DNA from: a virus
Virus record (IMG/VR): IMGVR_UViG_3300048922_000158
Location: 1 to 27,965 of that record
DNA length: 27,965 nt
Strand: one strand, 5' to 3'
Made by a program: the position numbers and the translations under genes. Position 1 is the first letter of the stretch. Each line of letters opens with the position of its first letter. Below the pieces are notes generated by a model. That model was not told the DNA's origin and did no database searches. It worked only from the letters and a program-made list of their open reading frames with translations. This document shows, one piece after another, positions 1,305-18,393 of the stretch.

Positions 1305-2738
1305 TCATTCACACATCTTCTTAAATTCATCAGCCACAAACTGTACCTGGGTTCCCACAATTACTTGCAGGCTGTTCTTTCCAGGTCTGATTACCCCTGT
1401 TACACCTGATGATTTTATCATCTTTTCATTTACTTGCGCCTGATCTATTATTTCAAGCCTTAATCGCGTAATGCAGTTATCAATGCTGGTAATATTGCTC
1501 TTCCCCCCTACTCCTTCTAAAATGATCGCAGCAATCTGGGTATAATCATGATTGGAAAGAGTTATTTTTGTTTCATTTGCATCCTCATCTTCTCGTCCTG
1601 GAGTCTTAAAGTTAAATTTCGTAATTGCCAAACGGAATATAGAATAATAAACAGCAAAATAAGCAAGACCAAGTGGAATAATATAAAGTGGATTCAAAGC
1701 CATTGGAGCTTTAAAACTTAAAACCCAGTCAACAAAACCAGCACTGAAGTTAAATCCGGTACGAACTGGAAGCAAAGAACAGATTGCCAATGAAATACCT
1801 GTCAGGATTGCATGAATCAAATATAGACCTGGCGCAAGGAACATAAATGCAAATTCCAAAGGCTCTGTTACTCCTGTAAAGAAAGAACATACGGCGGCTG
1901 CCAGCAGTAATCCATATACACTTTTCTTCTTTCCAGGCTTTGCTGTATGGTACATAGCTAGAGCTGCCCCTGGAAGACCAAACATCATAACTGGGAAGAA
2001 GCCTGTCATATACTGCCCTGTCTGCCCCAAAGTACCAGTTCCGGCCCAGAAATTCCCAAGGTCATTTACACCGGCAACATCAAACCAGAATACAGAGTTC
2101 AGTGCATGGTGAAGCCCTACCGGTATCAAAAGGCGATTGAAGAAACCATATAAGCCAGCCCCTACAGCTCCCATCCCTAAAATTCCTTTTCCGAATATAA
2201 CCAGCCCTGTATATAAAACAGGCCATACAAAGAACAGGACCAAACAAGCTACCAGAGAGACCAGTGCCGTCACAATGGCTACCGAACGCTTTCCACTAAA
2301 GAATGCCAGAGCATCGGGAAGCTTCGTATTCTTGAACCTGTTATAACAGGTGGAACCGATGATTCCTGATACAATACCAATAAACTGGTTGCTGATTTTT
2401 CCAAAAGCAGCATTTACCTCACTGACATCAATCCCTTTTAACATGGCAACAACTCCTGGAGATAAAATAGTCTGAATCATCAGCCAGGAAACAATTGCTG
2501 CCAACGCCGAGGTTCCTTCGTGATCGTCTGACATTCCTACGCCAACACCAATGGCAAATAAGATAGCCATGTTATCAATAATAGCTCCGCCTGCTTTAAT
2601 CAAAAATGCTGCAATGGCGCTATTGGCTCCCCAGCCGGTGGGGTCAATCCAATACCCGATCCCCATCAAAATGCCTGCCGCAGGCAGACACGCTACTGGA
2701 AGCATTAATGATTTCCCCAGTTTCTGTAAATACTTCAT
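1305..2738 (-). CDS. PTS glucose/N-acetylglucosamine-family EIICB permease
   Basis: This 477-aa membrane permease imports and phosphorylates a hexose of the glucose/GlcNAc class. The EIIC part (about residues 1-390) is strongly hydrophobic and has the family motifs NRLLIPVGLHHALN (201-214) and GVTEPLEF (289-296), whose Glu lies in the sugar-binding region. The EIIB domain follows, with the phosphorylated Cys at C422 in NCITRLRL. No EIIA domain is fused; the separate EIIA gene just upstream supplies it. The ATG at 2736-2738 was chosen because a strong ribosome site (GGGAAGGGAG) lies directly upstream; a frame 15 codons longer would ignore it. Sequence resembles NagE more than PtsG, but the exact sugar cannot be fixed from sequence alone. 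Expression is expected to be controlled by the antitermination leader at 4202-4283. Confidence 0.9.
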   Translation of the reverse strand: MKYLQKLGKSLMLPVACLPAAGILMGIGYWIDPTGWGANSAIAAFLIKAGGAIIDNMAILFAIGVGVGMSDDHEGTSALAAIVSWLMIQTILSPGVVAMLKGIDVSEVNAAFGKISNQFIGIVSGIIGSTCYNRFKNTKLPDALAFFSGKRSVAIVTALVSLVACLVLFFVWPVLYTGLVIFGKGILGMGAVGAGLYGFFNRLLIPVGLHHALNSVFWFDVAGVNDLGNFWAGTGTLGQTGQYMTGFFPVMMFGLPGAALAMYHTAKPGKKKSVYGLLLAAAVCSFFTGVTEPLEFAFMFLAPGLYLIHAILTGISLAICSLLPVRTGFNFSAGFVDWVLSFKAPMALNPLYIIPLGLAYFAVYYSIFRLAITKFNFKTPGREDEDANETKITLSNHDYTQIAAIILEGVGGKSNITSIDNCITRLRLEIIDQAQVNEKMIKSSGVTGVIRPGKNSLQVIVGTQVQFVADEFKKMCE

Positions 2739-2850
2739 AAAGTAACTCCCTTCCCTTTGTCCTTCCGGACATTTTTTATCCACTCCTGCATTACTGCAAG
2801 TTTAGATTTCACCCCTTCAGAATCTTTTTATTCAACCCATTCCCCTACCT

Positions 2851-3342
2851 CTACAACTCAATGATAGGTTCCAGCTCTTTAACCTGCATCCCACTATGGC
2901 ATACCATGTTGGGGTAGCATGATGTATTGCAGACAATAACAGGCGTTATCAACTCATAACCAGCCTCTTTTATTGCCTTCCTGTCAAATTCCAAGAGAAG
3001 CTCTCCTTGTTTCACATGGTCCCCCTGATTTTTAAATGAAGTAAAATGGTCTCCTTTTAAATGGACCGTATCCAGTCCAACATGGATAATTACTTCCGCG
3101 CCTTTTTCAGATGTAACGCTGACTGCATGCTTTGTCTGGAACATAACTGAGACAACTCCGTCAAAAGGTGCCACGATTCTCCCCTTTTCCGGAACGATAG
3201 CAACTCCTTTTCCCAAAATCTCCTGACTAAAAGCAGGGTCATTTACTTCACTTAGAGGAATCGCCTTTCCCTCCACAGGCGCCAATACCCACTCTTTCTC
3301 ATTTTTGTCGCCTAGAAAGATTTTTTTTAATGAACCAAACAT
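2851..3342 (-). CDS. PTS EIIA component, glucose family (Crr-like)
   Basis: This 163-aa soluble phosphocarrier passes phosphate from HPr to the EIIB domain of the neighbouring permease. The EIIA-Glc fold is clear: APVEGKAIPL near residue 21, IVAPFDGVVSV, the supporting His H72 in QTKHAVSV, and the phosphorylated His H87 in IIHVGLDTVHLKG. The length fits the stand-alone family. The C-terminus is unusual, with three Cys (138, 142, 148) in NTSCYPNMVCHSG where stand-alone EIIA proteins usually have none. It is the second gene of the operon, 14 nt after the antiterminator, and a 112-nt spacer without recognisable features separates it from the permease gene. Confidence 0.92.
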   Translation of the reverse strand: MFGSLKKIFLGDKNEKEWVLAPVEGKAIPLSEVNDPAFSQEILGKGVAIVPEKGRIVAPFDGVVSVMFQTKHAVSVTSEKGAEVIIHVGLDTVHLKGDHFTSFKNQGDHVKQGELLLEFDRKAIKEAGYELITPVIVCNTSCYPNMVCHSGMQVKELEPIIEL

Positions 3343-3356
3343 AGATTAACCTCCAC

Positions 3357-4184
3357 TTAAACTCCTAATCTTTTGATATGAATTGCCAAACATGCAATCT
3401 CCTCATCTACTAACTGATAATGATATGTTTCTAATATGTAATCCCTAACTTTGAGACTGCACTCATATTCATACGGGTACATCTTAGATATTGCATGGCT
3501 AAATCCTTCATCTAGATAGTTTGATGGCTCTTTGGCGACAATCCTCTGAGAAAGAAATCTTAAATGGCTGATGAATTGCTGATAATTCAAAGATGTCTCA
3601 TTCAGTTCCCTAGAAAAATGTTCTTTCACAAGTTTAACCACATCTCGTATCAGATTTGTAATACCAATGGTATCCCGCATTGCACTATTGAGTTCAGCAT
3701 TTACGATATGAAGCGCAATGGAGCCCGCTTCATCAACCGGAAGCATGACTCCCACCTTACGCTCAATTAAAGCAATTGCATATTCTCCAATCAGATACTC
3801 CTCTTTGTAAAAGGTCTTTATTTCACTAAGGAGAGGATTTGAAAAATCCATCTTTTGTTTAAAACGATGAATCGCAAAATTTATGTGATCCGTCAGTGTT
3901 ATGTATATATTCTGATTTAAACTTCTGTTTAAAACACTTTTTGCATAGTTGATAATCTCCGTTGAAACCTGAAGATGTTCCAGGGGTAGATTTACAAGAA
4001 GCTCCTTAAACTGATCCATACTTTTTTGATTGTCTAAGCGATACACCTTACTAACCTTATCTTCTGCAATCTCTTTGCCTGGCCTTGCACCGAATCCAAT
4101 TCCCCTACCAATGACAATTATCTCTTTCCCATCAATATCCAGAGCACTTACAATGTTATTGTTAATAATCTTATCAATCCGCAT
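3357..4184 (-). CDS. BglG/LicT-family transcriptional antiterminator
   Basis: A 275-aa RNA-binding regulator. Residues 1-55 form the co-antiterminator (CAT) domain, beginning MRIDKIINNNIVSALD and including VIGRGIGFGARPG. Two PTS regulation domains follow, with all four conserved His visible: H100 (LTDHINFAI) and H159 (ALHIVNAE) in PRD1, H207 (ISHLRFL) and H269 (LAIHIKRL) in PRD2. In this family PTS phosphorylation of these His sets dimerisation, so the protein binds its RAT RNA only when the cognate sugar is available. A matching RAT and terminator lie directly upstream, so it probably controls its own operon. The ATG at 4182-4184 follows AGGTGAGG; an in-frame GTG nine bases upstream belongs to the ribosome site. 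LicT, SacT and GlcT are the alternatives within the family. Confidence 0.92.
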   Translation of the reverse strand: MRIDKIINNNIVSALDIDGKEIIVIGRGIGFGARPGKEIAEDKVSKVYRLDNQKSMDQFKELLVNLPLEHLQVSTEIINYAKSVLNRSLNQNIYITLTDHINFAIHRFKQKMDFSNPLLSEIKTFYKEEYLIGEYAIALIERKVGVMLPVDEAGSIALHIVNAELNSAMRDTIGITNLIRDVVKLVKEHFSRELNETSLNYQQFISHLRFLSQRIVAKEPSNYLDEGFSHAISKMYPYEYECSLKVRDYILETYHYQLVDEEIACLAIHIKRLGV

Positions 4185-4201
4185 AAACCTCACCTGTGAA
4201 T

Positions 4202-4260
4202 AAAAAAAACCAATCTTAATTCAAAAAACAGAATTCTGTTTTCTAAACTAAAATTGGTTT
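4202..4260 (-). terminator. Leader terminator controlled by antitermination
   Basis: On the minus strand the arms 4236-4260 and 4207-4231 pair over 25 bp, with only four G-U wobbles and an AATT loop, and run into eight T. The stem lies between the promoter and the antiterminator gene. Its 5' arm overlaps the RAT site by a few bases (4256-4260), so the two structures are mutually exclusive. Confidence 0.92.
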
Positions 4261-4283
4261 TGCCTGCTTGCCAGTAACAACCC
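4256..4283 (-). promoter_or_regulatory. Ribonucleic antiterminator (RAT) site
   Basis: The minus-strand RNA reads GGGUUGUUACUGGCAAGCAG followed by GCAAAACC. This matches the LicT/SacT-type RAT layout: a G-rich arm, a UUACUG internal loop, then GCAGGCAAAACC. It overlaps the start of the terminator stem. Binding of the unphosphorylated antiterminator would block terminator folding. Match to the family pattern is by eye. Confidence 0.88.
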
Positions 4284-4305
4284 ATTTCGTTATTAAGTTT
4301 TTTTA

Positions 4306-4334
4306 AGCATATCAGTTTTATTTGAAAAAGTCAA
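4306..4334 (-). promoter_or_regulatory. Sigma-A promoter of the PTS operon
   Basis: The minus strand carries TTGACT (4329-4334), a 17-bp spacer and TATGCT (4306-4311). Transcription should start near 4299, about 15 nt before the RAT site. No clear catabolite-response element was found near it. Confidence 0.82.
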
Positions 4335-4349
4335 CAATTTATTTATGCA

Positions 4350-4775
4350 AAACACGGTATTTCAAATACAACATGCACATAAATTTACTTGATACTTTAC
4401 ATTTATTATCTATTTTATTATATTATTAGCTATATCATTCCACTTTTTAGTTACTTTCGCTCAAAAACATTTTTATTTAATTATTATTCATCTAAAACAC
4501 ATTGTATTTTGTGGGTATTAGTAGCCATTAACCTAATTTAATGTTCTATATTTATTCTCTACGCATATCTTTTTGCTTTATTTCGTATTACTTTGTTATC
4601 CTTGCAATAAAGCAAAAATCCCCGAAACATAAGAGTTTCGAGGATTTTAACATTTTTATAATAGAGCTTATTATCTCTTTGATAAGTACAAACCCCCATT
4701 ATATATAGAAGAAACAGCCTTTTGTAAGCAACCTGTAAGAAGTTCAGTTATCAATAGCCTTGAACAAGTTCAGTG
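4350..4775. other. AT-rich gap holding the host/prophage junction
   Basis: No gene of credible length is seen on either strand. The stretch lies between the promoter of a host PTS operon and the last prophage gene, so the prophage attachment site should be here. The part next to the amidase has a 12-bp palindrome TGAACAAGTTCA (4761-4772) and a 9-bp direct repeat AAGTTCAGT (4740-4748 and 4766-4774). These are candidate integrase-arm or core sites, but the other prophage end is needed to define att. No tRNA gene was recognised here. Confidence 0.5.
4615..4648 (-). terminator. Terminator downstream of the prophage lysis genes
   Basis: A 14-bp stem with one wobble position (arms 4615-4628 and 4635-4648) and a 6-nt loop is followed by five T on the minus strand. 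It is about 130 nt after the amidase stop and would end the prophage late transcript before the host PTS operon. A short T-rich stretch on the plus strand means it could also work weakly in that direction. Confidence 0.75.
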
Positions 4776-5543
4776 TTAAAATTCTCCTATTTTCTGCACA
4801 CCGTCTTTATCGGTCACATATAGTGCACACTCTAATCCATGCCCGACCCTTGGTTCAAAATAATAATCCTTGCCATTAATCACCTGCCAGTTTGTAACAG
4901 CATACCCATCATCATTAAAATAATATTTATGACTATTAATAACCCGCCATGAAGATTTATAATAGGTGGTCTTACTATCTGCATACCACCAACCGTTTTT
5001 ATCCTGATTCCACCCCGGTACATATTTAGTCGGTCTTGTTACCAGTGCTGCTTTAAATGCTTCCCATGTGTGCTGTGTGTGATTGTAGACATAAGGATTG
5101 GGGCATATCTTCCCTGTCACATCATGGTGACGAATTACATGGTCCGCAGGTATATTGTACTTTGCCATCAGATCCTTGGTCAGCGCAATGGCTGCCTGTA
5201 CCGTGGCTTCCTCAAAGTACCAGTCCCGGCTCGTGTCTGCCAGGGAACCTTTATTTCGTACACATAATTCAATACCTAAGCTATTACCATTACGACAATC
5301 AGGATGTATGTACTTCTTTGCTCCACAATGCCATGCGATATTGTTATCTACAACAGACTGCCAGATCTCCCCGCTAAATCCCACATAATAATGAGCACTG
5401 GCTCCAATGTACTGAGAAGCATAGTATTTGCAGTTTGCTTCTGCCCCACCTAAAGCACCAACATAGTGAATTACAATATACTTGATACGGTCTGCCTGAC
5501 CGTTACCGTAGTTGTAAGGTGTTAATGATTGATGAATTTCCAT
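4776..5543 (-). CDS. Phage endolysin: N-acetylmuramoyl-L-alanine amidase with cell-wall-binding repeats
   Basis: This 255-aa lytic enzyme cleaves the bond between MurNAc and L-Ala in peptidoglycan. The Amidase_2/PGRP catalytic domain covers about residues 10-155. Its zinc ligands are visible: H26 in IVIHYVG, a His of the pair H139/H140 in RHHDVTGK, and C147 in KICPNP; K145 matches the catalytic Lys of T7 lysozyme. After a linker, residues 175-235 hold aromatic repeats of the choline-binding/CW_binding type (GWWYADSKTTYYKSSW, HKYYFNDDGYAVTNW, KDYYFE), which should target the host wall. No signal peptide is present, so release depends on the holin. The ATG at 5541-5543 follows GGAGG with an 8-nt spacer. 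It is the last gene of the late module, and a hairpin lies just before its ribosome site. Confidence 0.93.
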   Translation of the reverse strand: MEIHQSLTPYNYGNGQADRIKYIVIHYVGALGGAEANCKYYASQYIGASAHYYVGFSGEIWQSVVDNNIAWHCGAKKYIHPDCRNGNSLGIELCVRNKGSLADTSRDWYFEEATVQAAIALTKDLMAKYNIPADHVIRHHDVTGKICPNPYVYNHTQHTWEAFKAALVTRPTKYVPGWNQDKNGWWYADSKTTYYKSSWRVINSHKYYFNDDGYAVTNWQVINGKDYYFEPRVGHGLECALYVTDKDGVQKIGEF

Positions 5544-5565
5544 GATAGAATCCTCCAAAAGAAAA

Positions 5566-13133: not shown

Positions 13134-15869
13134 TTACTCATGCACCCCTTCCGTAATGCTGTCAATAGCTTCATTAACTGAATCCGTAAAACCTGACATA
13201 AATCCATCAAGATCATTACCGTTTTTAATTGTATTCTGCATTCCTGACTGGTCAATATTGACTTCTGCAACGGTATATCTATTCACTGCTTCCTGTTCTG
13301 CAATGTCACGTAAATACTTTAAATCTTCTTCTGTAATGTCCATTGCATCTTTTATACCACCTGTATCTTCTGCAATGGTGTCAAGGTTCCCGGCTACACC
13401 TGAACCATTCAACGCTGACGCATAATCATCTTCGTTAGGTATATCTGTACTACCAAAAATATCCGAAAGGTTAAAATTTGAAACTTTATCAGCAATACCA
13501 TCACCCCATGCAGCACCCGCATCAAAAGCATTGGAAGCCCATCCATCTTGAAAAGTGTCAAAGGTTGACATACCTTTATCAAATGCATCGGCTACTGACG
13601 TGTATTCCTGTTTATTCCCGGCTGCTTCTGCTGATTTAGCTGCATATTCATCCGCTGCCGATGTAATACCTGAATAATCAAAGTCTACAAATGGTAATTT
13701 ATTTAAGGCTTCGGCTATACCACCAATAACAGTTAATGCTGTTGAAAGTAGATCATAAAACCATGACTGTACAGATGAAATTGCATTGTTAAAAGCTACC
13801 GTCATATTAGTTGCCAATGCTCCAATGGCACTACCAATACCTAGTGCAATATTTGCAACGGTCAAGCCCAAGTTTTTGAAGAACTGAATTACTACATTGA
13901 TACCACCAGTTATTACACCAAATCCTGACGATGCAACCCCAGTCATCTTTGCTATTGCATTTGCTATTGCGAAAATAATTGCAATCAAGGCAATTATTAA
14001 AATAATTATCCACACAATAGGACAGGCATACATTGCACTATTTAATCCCATCTGTGCAGTCGCTGCTCCCCAAGTTGTACCTGAGAATAACACCATAGCT
14101 GCGGAAGCAAGCAATTTTGCTAAGGTCATGACTACGGTTGCTGCTGCACTTGCCAACTCCATACCCTTTACAATAGCAAGATAAGCTGCATATACAGCCA
14201 ACGCACCTATAACCCCATAAATGATAGGACTAATTATTGACCAGTTATCAGTTATAAAACTACCGACTGTACCAATCAGGTCAAAGATATTCAAGACAAT
14301 GTTTGCGAGTACCGCCATTGCTTCGATTGCACCCTTCACAAACTTCTGAAAGGATTCACTATTGGCTATATCATTCAACCTTTGAAGTACGGGCTGAAAA
14401 GCCATAATTGCGGTATTCTGCATGGACTGCCAAACCTGTCCCCAAGTCATAGGCATTTGTTCAAACTTGGCATTAATATCATCAGAAGCTGCAAAGATTG
14501 CTGCTTTTACAACGTCCGCTGACAATTCACCTTCTGATGCCATTTCACGAATTTTGCCAATAGGGACGTTAAGATAATCCGCTATGTTCTGAATCAAATT
14601 AGGGGCTTGTTCAAAGATACTGTTTAATTCATCACCACGTAAGACACCTGAACCAAGTGCCTGTGATAACTGTAACATGGCATTAGATGCTTCCGTTGTT
14701 GATGCTCCGGCAATAGTCATCTGTTTTTGGATAAGGTCAGCAAATGCAACCACTTCTGTTGAACTACCAAAAGCATCCTTTGCATTATTACCGAAACGGG
14801 CAACTACACCAGCCATTTCAGTGAAAGAACCACGTGCATCCTGCGCTGCTGCATATACCATATTTACCAGTTCATCCGTACTTTGCAAACCGTCATTCAT
14901 CATGTTCAATCTTGACGTTGTCTGAACAAGTTCATCAGAAATGTTCAAAGCCCCACCAGCCGATTGGATACTGATATAAGTTGCAGCCACACCCTTAATC
15001 GCATTAGTTAAACTATCTGCCTCACTTGTTCCTTCTTGAATTTTCTCATTAAATCGCCCTTGTTCATCAACATTGTCTCTAATGTATCGTTCTGTATTGC
15101 TAATAGTTTGCGATAACTTCAAATACGCATCGTTTGCAGCACTCACATCCATATTATCCATTGCAGAATTTAGGCTGTTCTGTGCCTGTAACGCTTGATT
15201 CAATTGGGAACGTAATTGTTCCAGTTCTGCATTTGCAGTATCAGTTCCTATGTTTACCGGATTATTCTCAATCTGCTGAATATGGTCACGAACCATATCA
15301 ATTCTAACCGCCAAACTGTTCAAGTTTTGGAATGCTTCTGGTGGAAAAATCATAGTATTGTAAGCCTGTCTTGCAATACTATCTTGTGTACTGCTTAACT
15401 GCTCCAACATTGAATTAGTACTTTGAACTTCCTGACGGAATCGGTCAATGCCTGTACTTGTGAATACATCCAAGCCGTCCGTTTCCCATTGAATGGGAAT
15501 TTCAACAGGGTCAGGGGGTGCATTTGGCTGAATAGGTGTTTCAAGTGGTGGCGGGTTTTCTATAAGTGGTTCAGGAAGGATCGGCTCTACTGGAACAGAT
15601 ATGGGTTCTTGATTCCCACCAGTCACCATAGGTGAGGTGACATCAGGGGCGGTCTGATTATTCAGTTCTGCGTTCAGTTGGTTCAGTGCAGCAGTTGCTT
15701 GATTGATTTCATTTCTTGCACCTTCCAGTGATGATGTATCAATATCAGCATTCATACTCTGCTGCATATCAGCCATAGATGACACAGCAAGGTTTACAGA
15801 ATTAATAATACCGTAAATCACATTAGTAAATTGATCGTTTAGTTCTATACCTGTTTGAATGGATGACAC
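13134..15869 (-). CDS. Tail tape measure protein
   Basis: A 911-aa protein that sets tail length and travels through the tube at injection. Residues 1-300 are helical, Asn/Gln-rich, with a Pro-rich block near 85-125. The conserved tape-measure N-terminal domain is at about 300-500 (ARGSFTEMAGVVARFGNNAKDAFG, LSQALGSGVLRGDELNSIFEQAPNL). Strongly hydrophobic segments occupy about 505-690 and could span a membrane. The start is GTG at 15867-15869 with an AGGTG ribosome site; a nearby ATG is out of frame. It starts 7 nt after the frameshifted chaperone extension, exactly the place expected. At about 1.5 angstrom per residue the tail would be roughly 130-140 nm (a rule of thumb, not a measurement). 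Confidence 0.93.
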   Translation of the reverse strand: MSSIQTGIELNDQFTNVIYGIINSVNLAVSSMADMQQSMNADIDTSSLEGARNEINQATAALNQLNAELNNQTAPDVTSPMVTGGNQEPISVPVEPILPEPLIENPPPLETPIQPNAPPDPVEIPIQWETDGLDVFTSTGIDRFRQEVQSTNSMLEQLSSTQDSIARQAYNTMIFPPEAFQNLNSLAVRIDMVRDHIQQIENNPVNIGTDTANAELEQLRSQLNQALQAQNSLNSAMDNMDVSAANDAYLKLSQTISNTERYIRDNVDEQGRFNEKIQEGTSEADSLTNAIKGVAATYISIQSAGGALNISDELVQTTSRLNMMNDGLQSTDELVNMVYAAAQDARGSFTEMAGVVARFGNNAKDAFGSSTEVVAFADLIQKQMTIAGASTTEASNAMLQLSQALGSGVLRGDELNSIFEQAPNLIQNIADYLNVPIGKIREMASEGELSADVVKAAIFAASDDINAKFEQMPMTWGQVWQSMQNTAIMAFQPVLQRLNDIANSESFQKFVKGAIEAMAVLANIVLNIFDLIGTVGSFITDNWSIISPIIYGVIGALAVYAAYLAIVKGMELASAAATVVMTLAKLLASAAMVLFSGTTWGAATAQMGLNSAMYACPIVWIIILIIALIAIIFAIANAIAKMTGVASSGFGVITGGINVVIQFFKNLGLTVANIALGIGSAIGALATNMTVAFNNAISSVQSWFYDLLSTALTVIGGIAEALNKLPFVDFDYSGITSAADEYAAKSAEAAGNKQEYTSVADAFDKGMSTFDTFQDGWASNAFDAGAAWGDGIADKVSNFNLSDIFGSTDIPNEDDYASALNGSGVAGNLDTIAEDTGGIKDAMDITEEDLKYLRDIAEQEAVNRYTVAEVNIDQSGMQNTIKNGNDLDGFMSGFTDSVNEAIDSITEGVHE

Positions 15870-15875
15870 CGCCCA

Positions 15876-16070
15876 TCACCTACCTTTCTTTTTAGCTTTC
15901 TTTTCAGCCCTTTTCTTTTCTTCCTTATCCTTTTCCACTTTTATTTTTATAGATGCAATAACAAAAGCTTTTTCTTGCTCATCCATTTCCAAAAAAGTAG
16001 AAGGTAGTATGTGAAGTTTGTGAAGGGCATAGTAAGCATAATTCGCTTCACCATCCCCTTCTTCTATTAG
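15876..16070 (-). CDS. -1 frameshift extension of the tail assembly chaperone
   Basis: This reading frame has no start codon of its own and is entered by -1 slippage from the upstream chaperone gene. It adds 64 residues, beginning LIEEGDGEANYAYYALHK, continuing PSTFLEMDEQEKAFVIASI and ending in a Lys/Glu-rich tail (KDKEEKKRAEKKAKKKGR) before TGA. The joint product would be about 207 aa. The position between the chaperone and tape-measure genes matches the lambda G/GT arrangement, where the minor longer product binds the tape measure while the major short form binds tail-tube subunits. No initiation signal for separate translation is seen. Confidence 0.85.
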   Translation of the reverse strand, partial: LIEEGDGEANYAYYALHKLHILPSTFLEMDEQEKAFVIASIKIKVEKDKEEKKRAEKKAKKKGR

Positions 16071-16076
16071 TTTTTT
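16022..16076 (-). promoter_or_regulatory. Programmed -1 ribosomal frameshift signal
   Basis: The minus strand has the slippery heptamer A AAA AAC (16070-16076), in frame with GCA AAA AAC, directly followed by TAA TAG. Eight nt after the heptamer a candidate stimulatory hairpin begins: outer stem GAAGGG/CCCTTC (16056-16061 with 16022-16027) and inner stem AAGC/GCTT (16045-16048 with 16034-16037). The heptamer and spacing are canonical; the hairpin was found by eye and is modest in strength. Confidence 0.82.
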
Positions 16077-16498
16077 GCTTCATCTACCTTGTCATCAAAA
16101 GACTTGGCGAATCCCTGAAACTTCTGCATCCAAGTGGTAAATTCCTGGTATTCTCCTGCATCATCCACCATAGCAAAAATCAAATCTTCTGGATTCATTG
16201 CACCATATGAATCCTGTAATTCCTTATCATACAGGTCAGGGGAAACAGTAGCTGCAACAATCATTTTGGACAGATACATTGAAGTATTCAATTTAGGTCT
16301 GAATAAGTTCGGCTTTCCTGTAATCTGAACTTCCATGGTACAAGAATCACGCAACGTTTCATTTTCCTTTGAACCAATGTGCCTAAACTCCCATTTAAGG
16401 GCTTCACCGTTTTCATCCATTAAGGAATCTGTAGGTGCATACATTTCATTTTTCTTTTCAACTTTATTTACTTTCATAAAATGACTAAATTTTGACAT
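16067..16498 (-). CDS. xkdN: XkdN-like tail assembly chaperone, short form
   Basis: A 143-aa XkdN-like protein, the major product of the chaperone gene pair. It starts MSKFSHFMKVNKVEKKNEMY and has a segment LKWEFRHIGSKENETLRDSC followed by NTSMYLSKMIVAATVSPDLYDKEL; this looks like the family's central domain. It should keep tube or tape-measure subunits soluble before tail assembly. It lies between the tail tube and tape measure, as in PBSX. The stop TAA directly follows a slippery run, so a share of ribosomes makes the longer form. A GAGAGG ribosome site precedes the ATG, and the gene begins after a terminator, so its level should be lower than that of the tube protein. Confidence 0.9.
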   Translation of the reverse strand: MSKFSHFMKVNKVEKKNEMYAPTDSLMDENGEALKWEFRHIGSKENETLRDSCTMEVQITGKPNLFRPKLNTSMYLSKMIVAATVSPDLYDKELQDSYGAMNPEDLIFAMVDDAGEYQEFTTWMQKFQGFAKSFDDKVDEAKN

Positions 16499-16585: not shown

Positions 16586-17068
16586 TTAGTTAGTAAGAAA
16601 TCCAGTTAAATTTGCAAATGACTCTGGCATGGAGAAATCTTCAAAAGTTCCTTCAATTTCTTCATCCAAATATTCACCATCCGCATCAAATTTTGCAAGC
16701 ACTCCACCATCTGTATTGCAATCGTAAAGAATAATGGTCTGTCTTCCCGCTTTACTAGTAGGATCATCATTGGTAATTTGCATTTCAAAATACACATCTT
16801 CACCAGTGTTTTTATAGTCAAGTAATGCCTGACGTAACACTGATTGATTGTAATGTGCCGTTCCTGAAAACGTACCTTCCATTCCACATGATTTATGACC
16901 CGCCATGATTGCACCAAGGCGGGGTACTGTGGTTTTGGTCTTTTCAACCTGTACTTCCATTTCAATCATCTGCATGAAGTTATATCTACGTGAACCCATT
17001 GTGATATAACATTCAGCTAACTTTGCAGCAACTGTGTCACGAGCTTTCATATTAATGTTATTCTGCAT
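16586..17068 (-). CDS. xkdM: Tail tube protein (XkdM-like, DUF2001)
   Basis: This 160-aa protein is the major tail tube subunit of the XkdM/DUF2001 family. The start (MKARDTVAAKLAECYITMGSRRYNFMQM) and VEVQVEKTKTTVPRLGAIMAGHKSCGMEGTFSGTAHYN are typical, as is the size. The remainder is beta-rich, fitting the Hcp-like barrel of tube proteins. It is next to the sheath gene, 17 nt downstream, with an AAGGGGTG ribosome site. Both are needed in large amounts, and a terminator follows directly. Confidence 0.92.
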   Translation of the reverse strand: MQNNINMKARDTVAAKLAECYITMGSRRYNFMQMIEMEVQVEKTKTTVPRLGAIMAGHKSCGMEGTFSGTAHYNQSVLRQALLDYKNTGEDVYFEMQITNDDPTSKAGRQTIILYDCNTDGGVLAKFDADGEYLDEEIEGTFEDFSMPESFANLTGFLTN

Positions 17069-17085: not shown

Positions 17086-18393
17086 TTATGCAACCGTTAC
17101 AGTCATATATAATTTACTCATTGCGTTCACTACCTCTATTACACCATTAACTACAACAGATTTTTTTGTACCCCCTTGTGCAATAGAAACAGCCGAATCA
17201 GTAAAGTTTTCAATGGCACCAAGTTCTTGCAATGTCTTACGAATCTTTACCAAATCAGACCAAAGGGACATTCTACCGGATGGTGTATTTGGCACAGTCC
17301 CCAAATATTTAGTGTTAAACAACACCGCATCATCATTTCCCAACTGGTCAATGACTCTGATAGTTTGATTGTCCTTAAACACGTCCCCCTGGGTATCGGA
17401 AGTGGTGACCATACTGTTAACATCTTCAAGTACCCGCATATCAGAATTTACTCGGTGAAGTACCAATTCACCCGCCTTGATTGCTGCAATTAACTGATTC
17501 TGTGTATAAGCAGTATTTATAGAAAAAGTCCCATCATATTTTTTATTTTGACAGGACTTATTAACCTCACAACCACACTCTACACCAGTTACCCAGTATA
17601 CAAGGGAAGCTTCTGACCAATCTACGTCACTTGTTTTATTCTTTACATTAATGACACCCATGTAATCGGCAGCATAATTGTAAATGACTAACTGGAATTT
17701 GATCCCCAGTTCGTCACGTAATCGTTTGTTGAATGCTACATACAGTTTTTTTGTAATATCATCTGTAACTACAACCCCCATGGTGTTGTAAGTGTAAGAT
17801 TCCACCTTGTCCAAATATGTCTGATGTGCAGTTCCGTCAACCGTTCCATTTGTACCGCCTGTCAGGGGTGTGGATGCCGTTACTGCAAGTACTGCATCTT
17901 CCTTGAACATCAAATAATCATTTGCTACAAGGTCTGCTGCTTTTGTGACTGTCTGCACATCAACCTTCACTGTCCCAAGGTGTGTTACCACATCAAACTT
18001 TGCAGAATCATCTGCATTTACCTGAATTACAATTTTTAGGTCATTTCCACGTGTACCACTGTACAATGCAGTGGCAAATGTATTTGTTGCCTTATTACCA
18101 CCACTATTTAAACGGTATGCATATAATGTCCTTGCACCAAGAAACAAATCTGACAGACCTTTTAATTTGTCATTATCATAGGGATAACCAAAAAATTTCA
18201 AACTGTTTTTCTGGAAATCTTCATTAGTAACTTCAAACACTTCATTTTCAATACCCCAGTCCAGTTCAAGGGGCATGGTTGCAATACCTCTATCAGATAA
18301 TGCTGCGGATGCGGATGCTGCCGAAACAAAATTGATATATGTACCAGGGAGCGTTTTATTTTGTGTAGTAAAACTTCCACCACCTAAAGCCAT
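17086..18393 (-). CDS. xkdK: Contractile tail sheath protein (XkdK-like)
   Basis: A 435-aa tail sheath protein; its presence shows the phage has a contractile tail. Family features: LPGTYINFVSAASASAALSDRGIATMPLELDWG at the N-terminus, GARTLYAYRLNSGGNKA near residue 88, YNTMGVVVTD, VYWVTGVECGCEVNKSC and the C-terminal RVIDQLGNDDAVLF region, which in sheath proteins forms the inner contact domain. Length is typical of PBSX-type sheaths. An AAGGTAAGGTG ribosome site precedes the ATG. It is followed by the tube gene and preceded by a small unknown gene. Confidence 0.95.
   Translation of the reverse strand: MALGGGSFTTQNKTLPGTYINFVSAASASAALSDRGIATMPLELDWGIENEVFEVTNEDFQKNSLKFFGYPYDNDKLKGLSDLFLGARTLYAYRLNSGGNKATNTFATALYSGTRGNDLKIVIQVNADDSAKFDVVTHLGTVKVDVQTVTKAADLVANDYLMFKEDAVLAVTASTPLTGGTNGTVDGTAHQTYLDKVESYTYNTMGVVVTDDITKKLYVAFNKRLRDELGIKFQLVIYNYAADYMGVINVKNKTSDVDWSEASLVYWVTGVECGCEVNKSCQNKKYDGTFSINTAYTQNQLIAAIKAGELVLHRVNSDMRVLEDVNSMVTTSDTQGDVFKDNQTIRVIDQLGNDDAVLFNTKYLGTVPNTPSGRMSLWSDLVKIRKTLQELGAIENFTDSAVSIAQGGTKKSVVVNGVIEVVNAMSKLYMTVTVA

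Follow-up and report, generated by a model that had tools for sequence, protein, structure and literature searches.

Organization of the chaperone locus

The window, that is, the whole stretch of DNA that was analysed, comprises 27,965 nt of virus record IMGVR_UViG_3300048922_000158 and carries on its minus strand an ORF located between the tail tube and tape measure genes of a contractile-tail module (Table 1). The ORF matches PF08890, Phage_TAC_5 (XkdN-like tail assembly chaperone), with an E-value of 2.7e-41 and 141.1 bits against a cut-off of 27, and the alignment places ORF residues 5-142 on profile positions 2-135 of 135. PHROG 389 is matched as well (E 8e-39). These two matches, together with a gene position flanked by tail tube and tape measure, bear out the tail assembly chaperone identity that had been proposed in an earlier note on this DNA. 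The only solved relative is Bacillus subtilis YqbN (PDB 3klu), whose sequence is matched by the profile at E 2e-38. The AlphaFold model of the chaperone (mean pLDDT 82) matches the 3klu fold with an E-value of 4e-6 and TM scores of 0.61/0.72.

Beyond the tube, sheath and tape measure genes, one side of the locus encodes a LysM protein, a YqbQ-like protein, the sheath initiator, Baseplate_J, a Mu Gp48-like protein, the tail fibre, holin and amidase, and the opposite side encodes the tail terminator, an HK97 gp10-like protein, capsid, scaffold, a Mu F-like protein, portal and terminase. The module is a PBSX-type contractile-tail module, and a passage of PMC9406221, citing Pell 2013, already takes XkdN as the tail assembly chaperone of PBSX. 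Since cellular relatives were found mostly in Lachnospiraceae genomes, the host of the window phage probably belongs to this family. Elsewhere in the window, positions 1305-4193 hold a PTS sugar transporter (EIIC/EIIB, EIIA) and a BglG-like antiterminator that resemble host genes; the boundary of the prophage is therefore probably located somewhere from about 4194 to 4776. An amidase endolysin carrying a choline-binding repeat is encoded at 4776-5558.

Table 1. Features of the chaperone locus, in window coordinates.
Feature	Position	Strand	Details
Tail sheath protein (contractile tail)	17086-18393	-	PF04984, PF17482, PF17481
Tail tube protein	16586-17068	-	immediately upstream of the chaperone ORF; PF09393, E 1.6e-49
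Tail assembly chaperone ORF, zero frame	16067-16498	-	143 aa, ATG to TAA; PF08890, PHROG 389
Shine-Dalgarno-like element AAGGTA (consensus AAGGTG), probable	16085-16090	-	8 nt upstream of the heptamer
Slippery heptamer A_AAA_AAC	16070-16076	-	register GC/A AAA AAC/TAA TAG; fits a tandem -1 slip
Zero-frame stop TAA	16067-16069	-	directly 3' of the heptamer
Extension, -1 frame	15876-16070	-	64 codons plus TGA (15878-15876)
Hairpin, predicted stimulatory	16022-16061	-	starts 8 nt past the heptamer
Tape-measure Shine-Dalgarno AAAGGTAGGTGAT	15875-15887	-	overlaps the extension end; read from sequence
Tape measure protein	13134-15869	-	GTG start; PF20155, E 1.1e-47; PHROG 1068

The chaperone ORF ends, on the minus strand, with GAT GAA GCA AAA AAC TAA TAG. 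The A AAA AAC abutting TAA TAG that the earlier note had described is thus present and in the right register, as is the 64-codon -1 frame, which begins with the C of AAC (CTA ATA GAA GAA GGG GAT ...) and would bring the fused chaperone and extension to 207 aa. Within the window, the extension has no ATG, GTG or TTG before codon 29, which is also its first ATG. Its last codons, AAG AAA GGT AGG TGA, include the Shine-Dalgarno sequence of the tape-measure gene. The extension does end just before the tape-measure start, with 6 nt between its stop and the GTG; the 7 nt given earlier is the offset.

Conservation of the slip site and of the -1 frame

The string AAAAAAC occurs 8 times in the window, against about 16 copies expected, and is therefore not rare, so the significance of the heptamer rests on its register, position and conservation. 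A_AAA_AAC and the extension frame are kept in all 26 of the first relatives examined (55-100% identity), and the heptamer is also found in phage relatives at 22-40% identity (phiC2, phiCDKH02, MissE2, phiOH2, Osiris, Abouo and PBP180). Among 118 distinct junctions, 116 carry A_AAA_AAC, one carries A_AAA_AAG (L064) and one A_AAA_AAA (L162), both of which are slippery heptamers as well. Close relatives, in which a loss of the heptamer or of the -1 frame would have spoken against the earlier note, retain both essentially universally. The zero-frame stop lies 0 or 1 codon past the heptamer in 132/132 junctions of the near set. Family matches were obtained in 36 of 299 sampled Bacillota genomes; 42 family loci were read from these, and A_AAA_AAC was present in 41 of them. 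The one exception, the distant relative L218, has no stop-adjacent A_AAA_AAC but an A_AAA_AAG that precedes the zero-frame stop by about 18 codons.

Codon use was counted over 75 clusters at 80% protein identity. The slip codons are without synonymous variation, with GCA for Ala141 in 72/72, AAA for Lys142 in 75/75 and AAC for Asn143 in 74/74 clusters, whereas elsewhere in the chaperone conserved Lys, Asn and Ala positions use mixed codons. Judged by codon use, the slip codons are conserved as RNA and not as protein.

Selection on the -1 frame was estimated from pairwise dN/dS over the first 46 extension codons. The median dN/dS is 0.10 in the -1 frame; the two alternative frames give 1.5 and 2.3, and the chaperone's own final 46 codons give 0.13. 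By this measure, purifying selection acts strongly on the -1 frame. An alignment of 28 extension sequences, reaching down to 29% identity, has L1, P23 and A35 invariant. The Lys/Glu-rich end, called unusual in the earlier note, turned out to be the family consensus. AlphaFold predicts one helix over extension residues 31-63, preceded by two shorter helices (mean pLDDT 81). A search for PDB relatives of the extension returned only designed-helix and coiled-coil matches by sequence and none by fold. Exchange of the extension with other chaperone families was considered and rejected, as 131 of the 132 upstream ORFs match the XkdN profile and the exception is a fusion with a deletion (L149).

Two in-frame fusions were found. 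In Streptococcus phage EJ-1 (L034, 1914-2510) the chaperone and extension form one 198-aa frame owing to an additional A upstream of the heptamer, which the near-identical MismyG and Javan336 lack; it is possibly a natural long-only allele or a record error. In the metagenome contig L110/L149 (L110, 3001-3600) the end of the chaperone has been lost through a deletion, which brings the remainder into one frame with the extension. Given the extra base in the one and the deletion in the other, the fused forms are the exceptions, and both are isolated.

Elements flanking the heptamer

The hairpin that the earlier note had placed 8 nt after the slip site was recovered by folding the 60 nt past the heptamer, which gave -20.8 kcal/mol, compared with an average of -8.7 for 200 dinucleotide shuffles (z -5.2; 0/200 as good). 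A synonymous-recoding test was then applied to the 64 nt after the slip, using 100 recodings per junction at 132 junctions. The near set has a median z of -2.9, with values below zero in 93% of junctions, versus -0.3 and -0.5 in control stretches of the same genes. At distant loci (n=53) the median z is -2.1 (p 1e-8; control -0.1). Covariation was analysed in an ungapped alignment of 74 sequences, where the outer stem has compensatory changes at columns 10/47 (A-U to G-C in 14) and 14/43 (G-C to C-G in 9, U-G in 7). Paired cells make up 77% of the hairpin alignment, against 40-52% in slid registers. On these comparative data the hairpin is selected as RNA, beyond what coding predicts. The RNAalifold consensus stem has 4 pairs only, the inner part is variable and the outer stem can pair one base over in some members; therefore, no single fixed hairpin structure is claimed.

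Upstream of the heptamer, in the near clade, the Lys codon five codons before the slip AAA is AAG in 98 sequences and AAA in 4 (50:3 over clusters), counts that are not independent because the sequences are related. Other conserved Lys columns have mixed codon use, unlike this AAG-biased Lys. The AAG codon is usually followed by GTG to give AAGGTG, and the window has AAGGTA. The best anti-Shine-Dalgarno pairing falls at -15/-14 in most near-clade sequences, and the pairing compared with recodings has a median z of -0.8, with controls from -0.2 to +0.2. No such trend was seen in distant relatives (p 0.31). These data suggest that AAGGTG/AAGGTA is a probable, rather than proven, clade-specific stimulator of the dnaX type, confined to the near clade.

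Probable frameshifting, its alternatives and known systems

The arrangement is very probably explained by programmed -1 ribosomal frameshifting, through which the chaperone would be made as 143-aa and 207-aa forms. This two-product reading, put forward in the earlier note, is supported by very strong comparative evidence, from which we infer that frameshifting occurs. Most ribosomes would read GCA AAA AAC and end at the adjacent TAA, giving the shorter form; a minority would slip one base back at A_AAA_AAC and translate the 64 further codons, giving a longer form that ends just before the tape-measure start. The slip would be aided by the hairpin and probably by the upstream Shine-Dalgarno-like AAGGT element, and the predicted junction is EAKN-LIEEGDGEANYAYY. 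By analogy with lambda gpG/gpGT, the two forms together may act as chaperones of the tape measure, bring in subunits of the tube and afterwards depart from the tail, in which case the shared part would bind the tape measure and the extension would recruit the tube protein. For lambda, a passage of PMC5009743, citing Levin 1993 and Xu 2004-2014, assigns tape-measure binding to the shared part and recruitment of the tube to the extension, with both gone before the tail is complete. In the Clostridioides difficile phage phiCD508, an XkdN-like chaperone was not detected in virions by mass spectrometry, as would be expected of a chaperone (PMC11948020).

The long form could instead arise by transcriptional slippage on the A6 run, whereby some of the mRNA molecules would carry one A more and the junction would read EAKK-LIEEG. 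This is compatible with the conservation of the A run in every member and with the fact that an added A reaches the same -1 frame, and yet six A is short for transcriptional slippage. Relatives do not have a longer run (one A7 in 118), and RNA-level conservation extends to the C next to it and to the hairpin, which stands at the spacing of a ribosome; this fits tandem ribosomal slippage and makes slippage of the polymerase very unlikely. Less probable still is an extension made as a separate small protein with its own start, via coupling or re-initiation. Several phage records annotate the distal part alone, and six PHROG families of short proteins of unknown function match it, as such a protein would have them, but the conserved residues L1, I2, D6 and A12 begin at the first post-slip codon, ahead of every normal start codon in the window, and the zero-frame codons of the heptamer are invariant. 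Least credible is a gene that normally has a single 207-aa ORF, interrupted here by a stop that stems from a recent mutation or from erroneous sequencing. The annotation of EJ-1 as one 198-aa ORF and the in-frame fusion of contig L110/L149 could be read in this way; the split arrangement is, however, nearly universal across Bacillota, and the two fusions are accounted for by one extra base relative to MismyG/Javan336 and by a deletion. Conservation was the ground for rejecting both a separately started extension and a mutated or misread stop. Counted against ribosomal frameshifting were the weakness of the heptamer in E. coli, where A_AAA_AAC is less shifty than A_AAA_AAG (PMC5009743), the 4-pair RNAalifold stem and the fused EJ-1 and L110/L149.

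The locus shares with the XkdN-like chaperones (PF08890; PBSX XkdN, YqbN) the family, fold (3klu), gene place, heptamer and -1 extension, and nothing essential differs; the near clade adds the AAGGTG-like element, which shows no trend in far members. The parallel with lambda G/GT drawn in the earlier note is sound for arrangement and mechanism, as gene order is shared, the extension ends at the tape-measure gene in both, and -1 slippage yields two products in lambda and very probably here. It does not extend to sequence, since hhalign detected no homology between either part and lambda G or T, with a probability of about 0.2% in both cases. Lambda further differs in its non-contractile tail and its longer extension, compared with 64 aa here. 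SPP1 and HK97-type phages also have non-contractile tails, and the tail-chaperone -1 frameshift is common to SPP1 gp17.5/gp17.5*, the HK97-type chaperones and the present system. SPP1 gp17.5/gp17.5* slips at a different heptamer, U_UUU_UUC (PMC6316719), and frameshifting in HK97-like chaperones has been measured at 6-7% (PMC3711429). The E. coli dnaX signal consists of an upstream Shine-Dalgarno-like element, an A-rich heptamer and a downstream hairpin (PMC3711429). The A-rich heptamer and the downstream hairpin have counterparts here, and the Shine-Dalgarno-like element probably has one in the near clade, but dnaX is an unrelated gene and uses A_AAA_AAG in place of A_AAA_AAC.

Tail-chaperone frameshifting is well known, so the finding itself is expected. 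In the open-access literature we found no statement of a frameshift in the XkdN family and no direct measurement of its long product, although the frameshift may be reported in subscription literature. What is added here is a family-wide heptamer rule and a possible variant signal that includes the Shine-Dalgarno-like element. Taken jointly, and as a tentative reading that we consider possible, the XkdN family of Bacillota may have nearly fixed A_AAA_AAC, with at most one codon between heptamer and stop in almost all cases; phages of Lachnospiraceae may have added a Shine-Dalgarno-like stimulator, giving a dnaX-like three-part signal; and selection may have favoured this heptamer, weak in E. 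coli, for a low, precise ratio of the two forms. This raises the question of why AAC has been retained, given that in E. coli slippage is stronger with AAG.

The finding is useful in that the near-invariance of A_AAA_AAC offers a simple criterion by which the long form can be recognized in prophages of Bacillota and in PBSX-like particles. It is also useful because none of the annotated phage records examined (0/11) links extension and chaperone by a frameshift, and because PHROG families 20560, 33439, 10943, 5646, 28231 and 2722, all of unknown function, match the extension. In several of the phage records the distal part is annotated as a separate hypothetical gene, and the six PHROG families are probably gene-caller fragments of the frameshift product. 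A further observation on annotation is that the XkdN-like chaperone is labelled 'portal protein' in phages phiCDKH02 and MissE2 (L028, 2001-2441; L030, 1998-2402), which looks like a misannotation.
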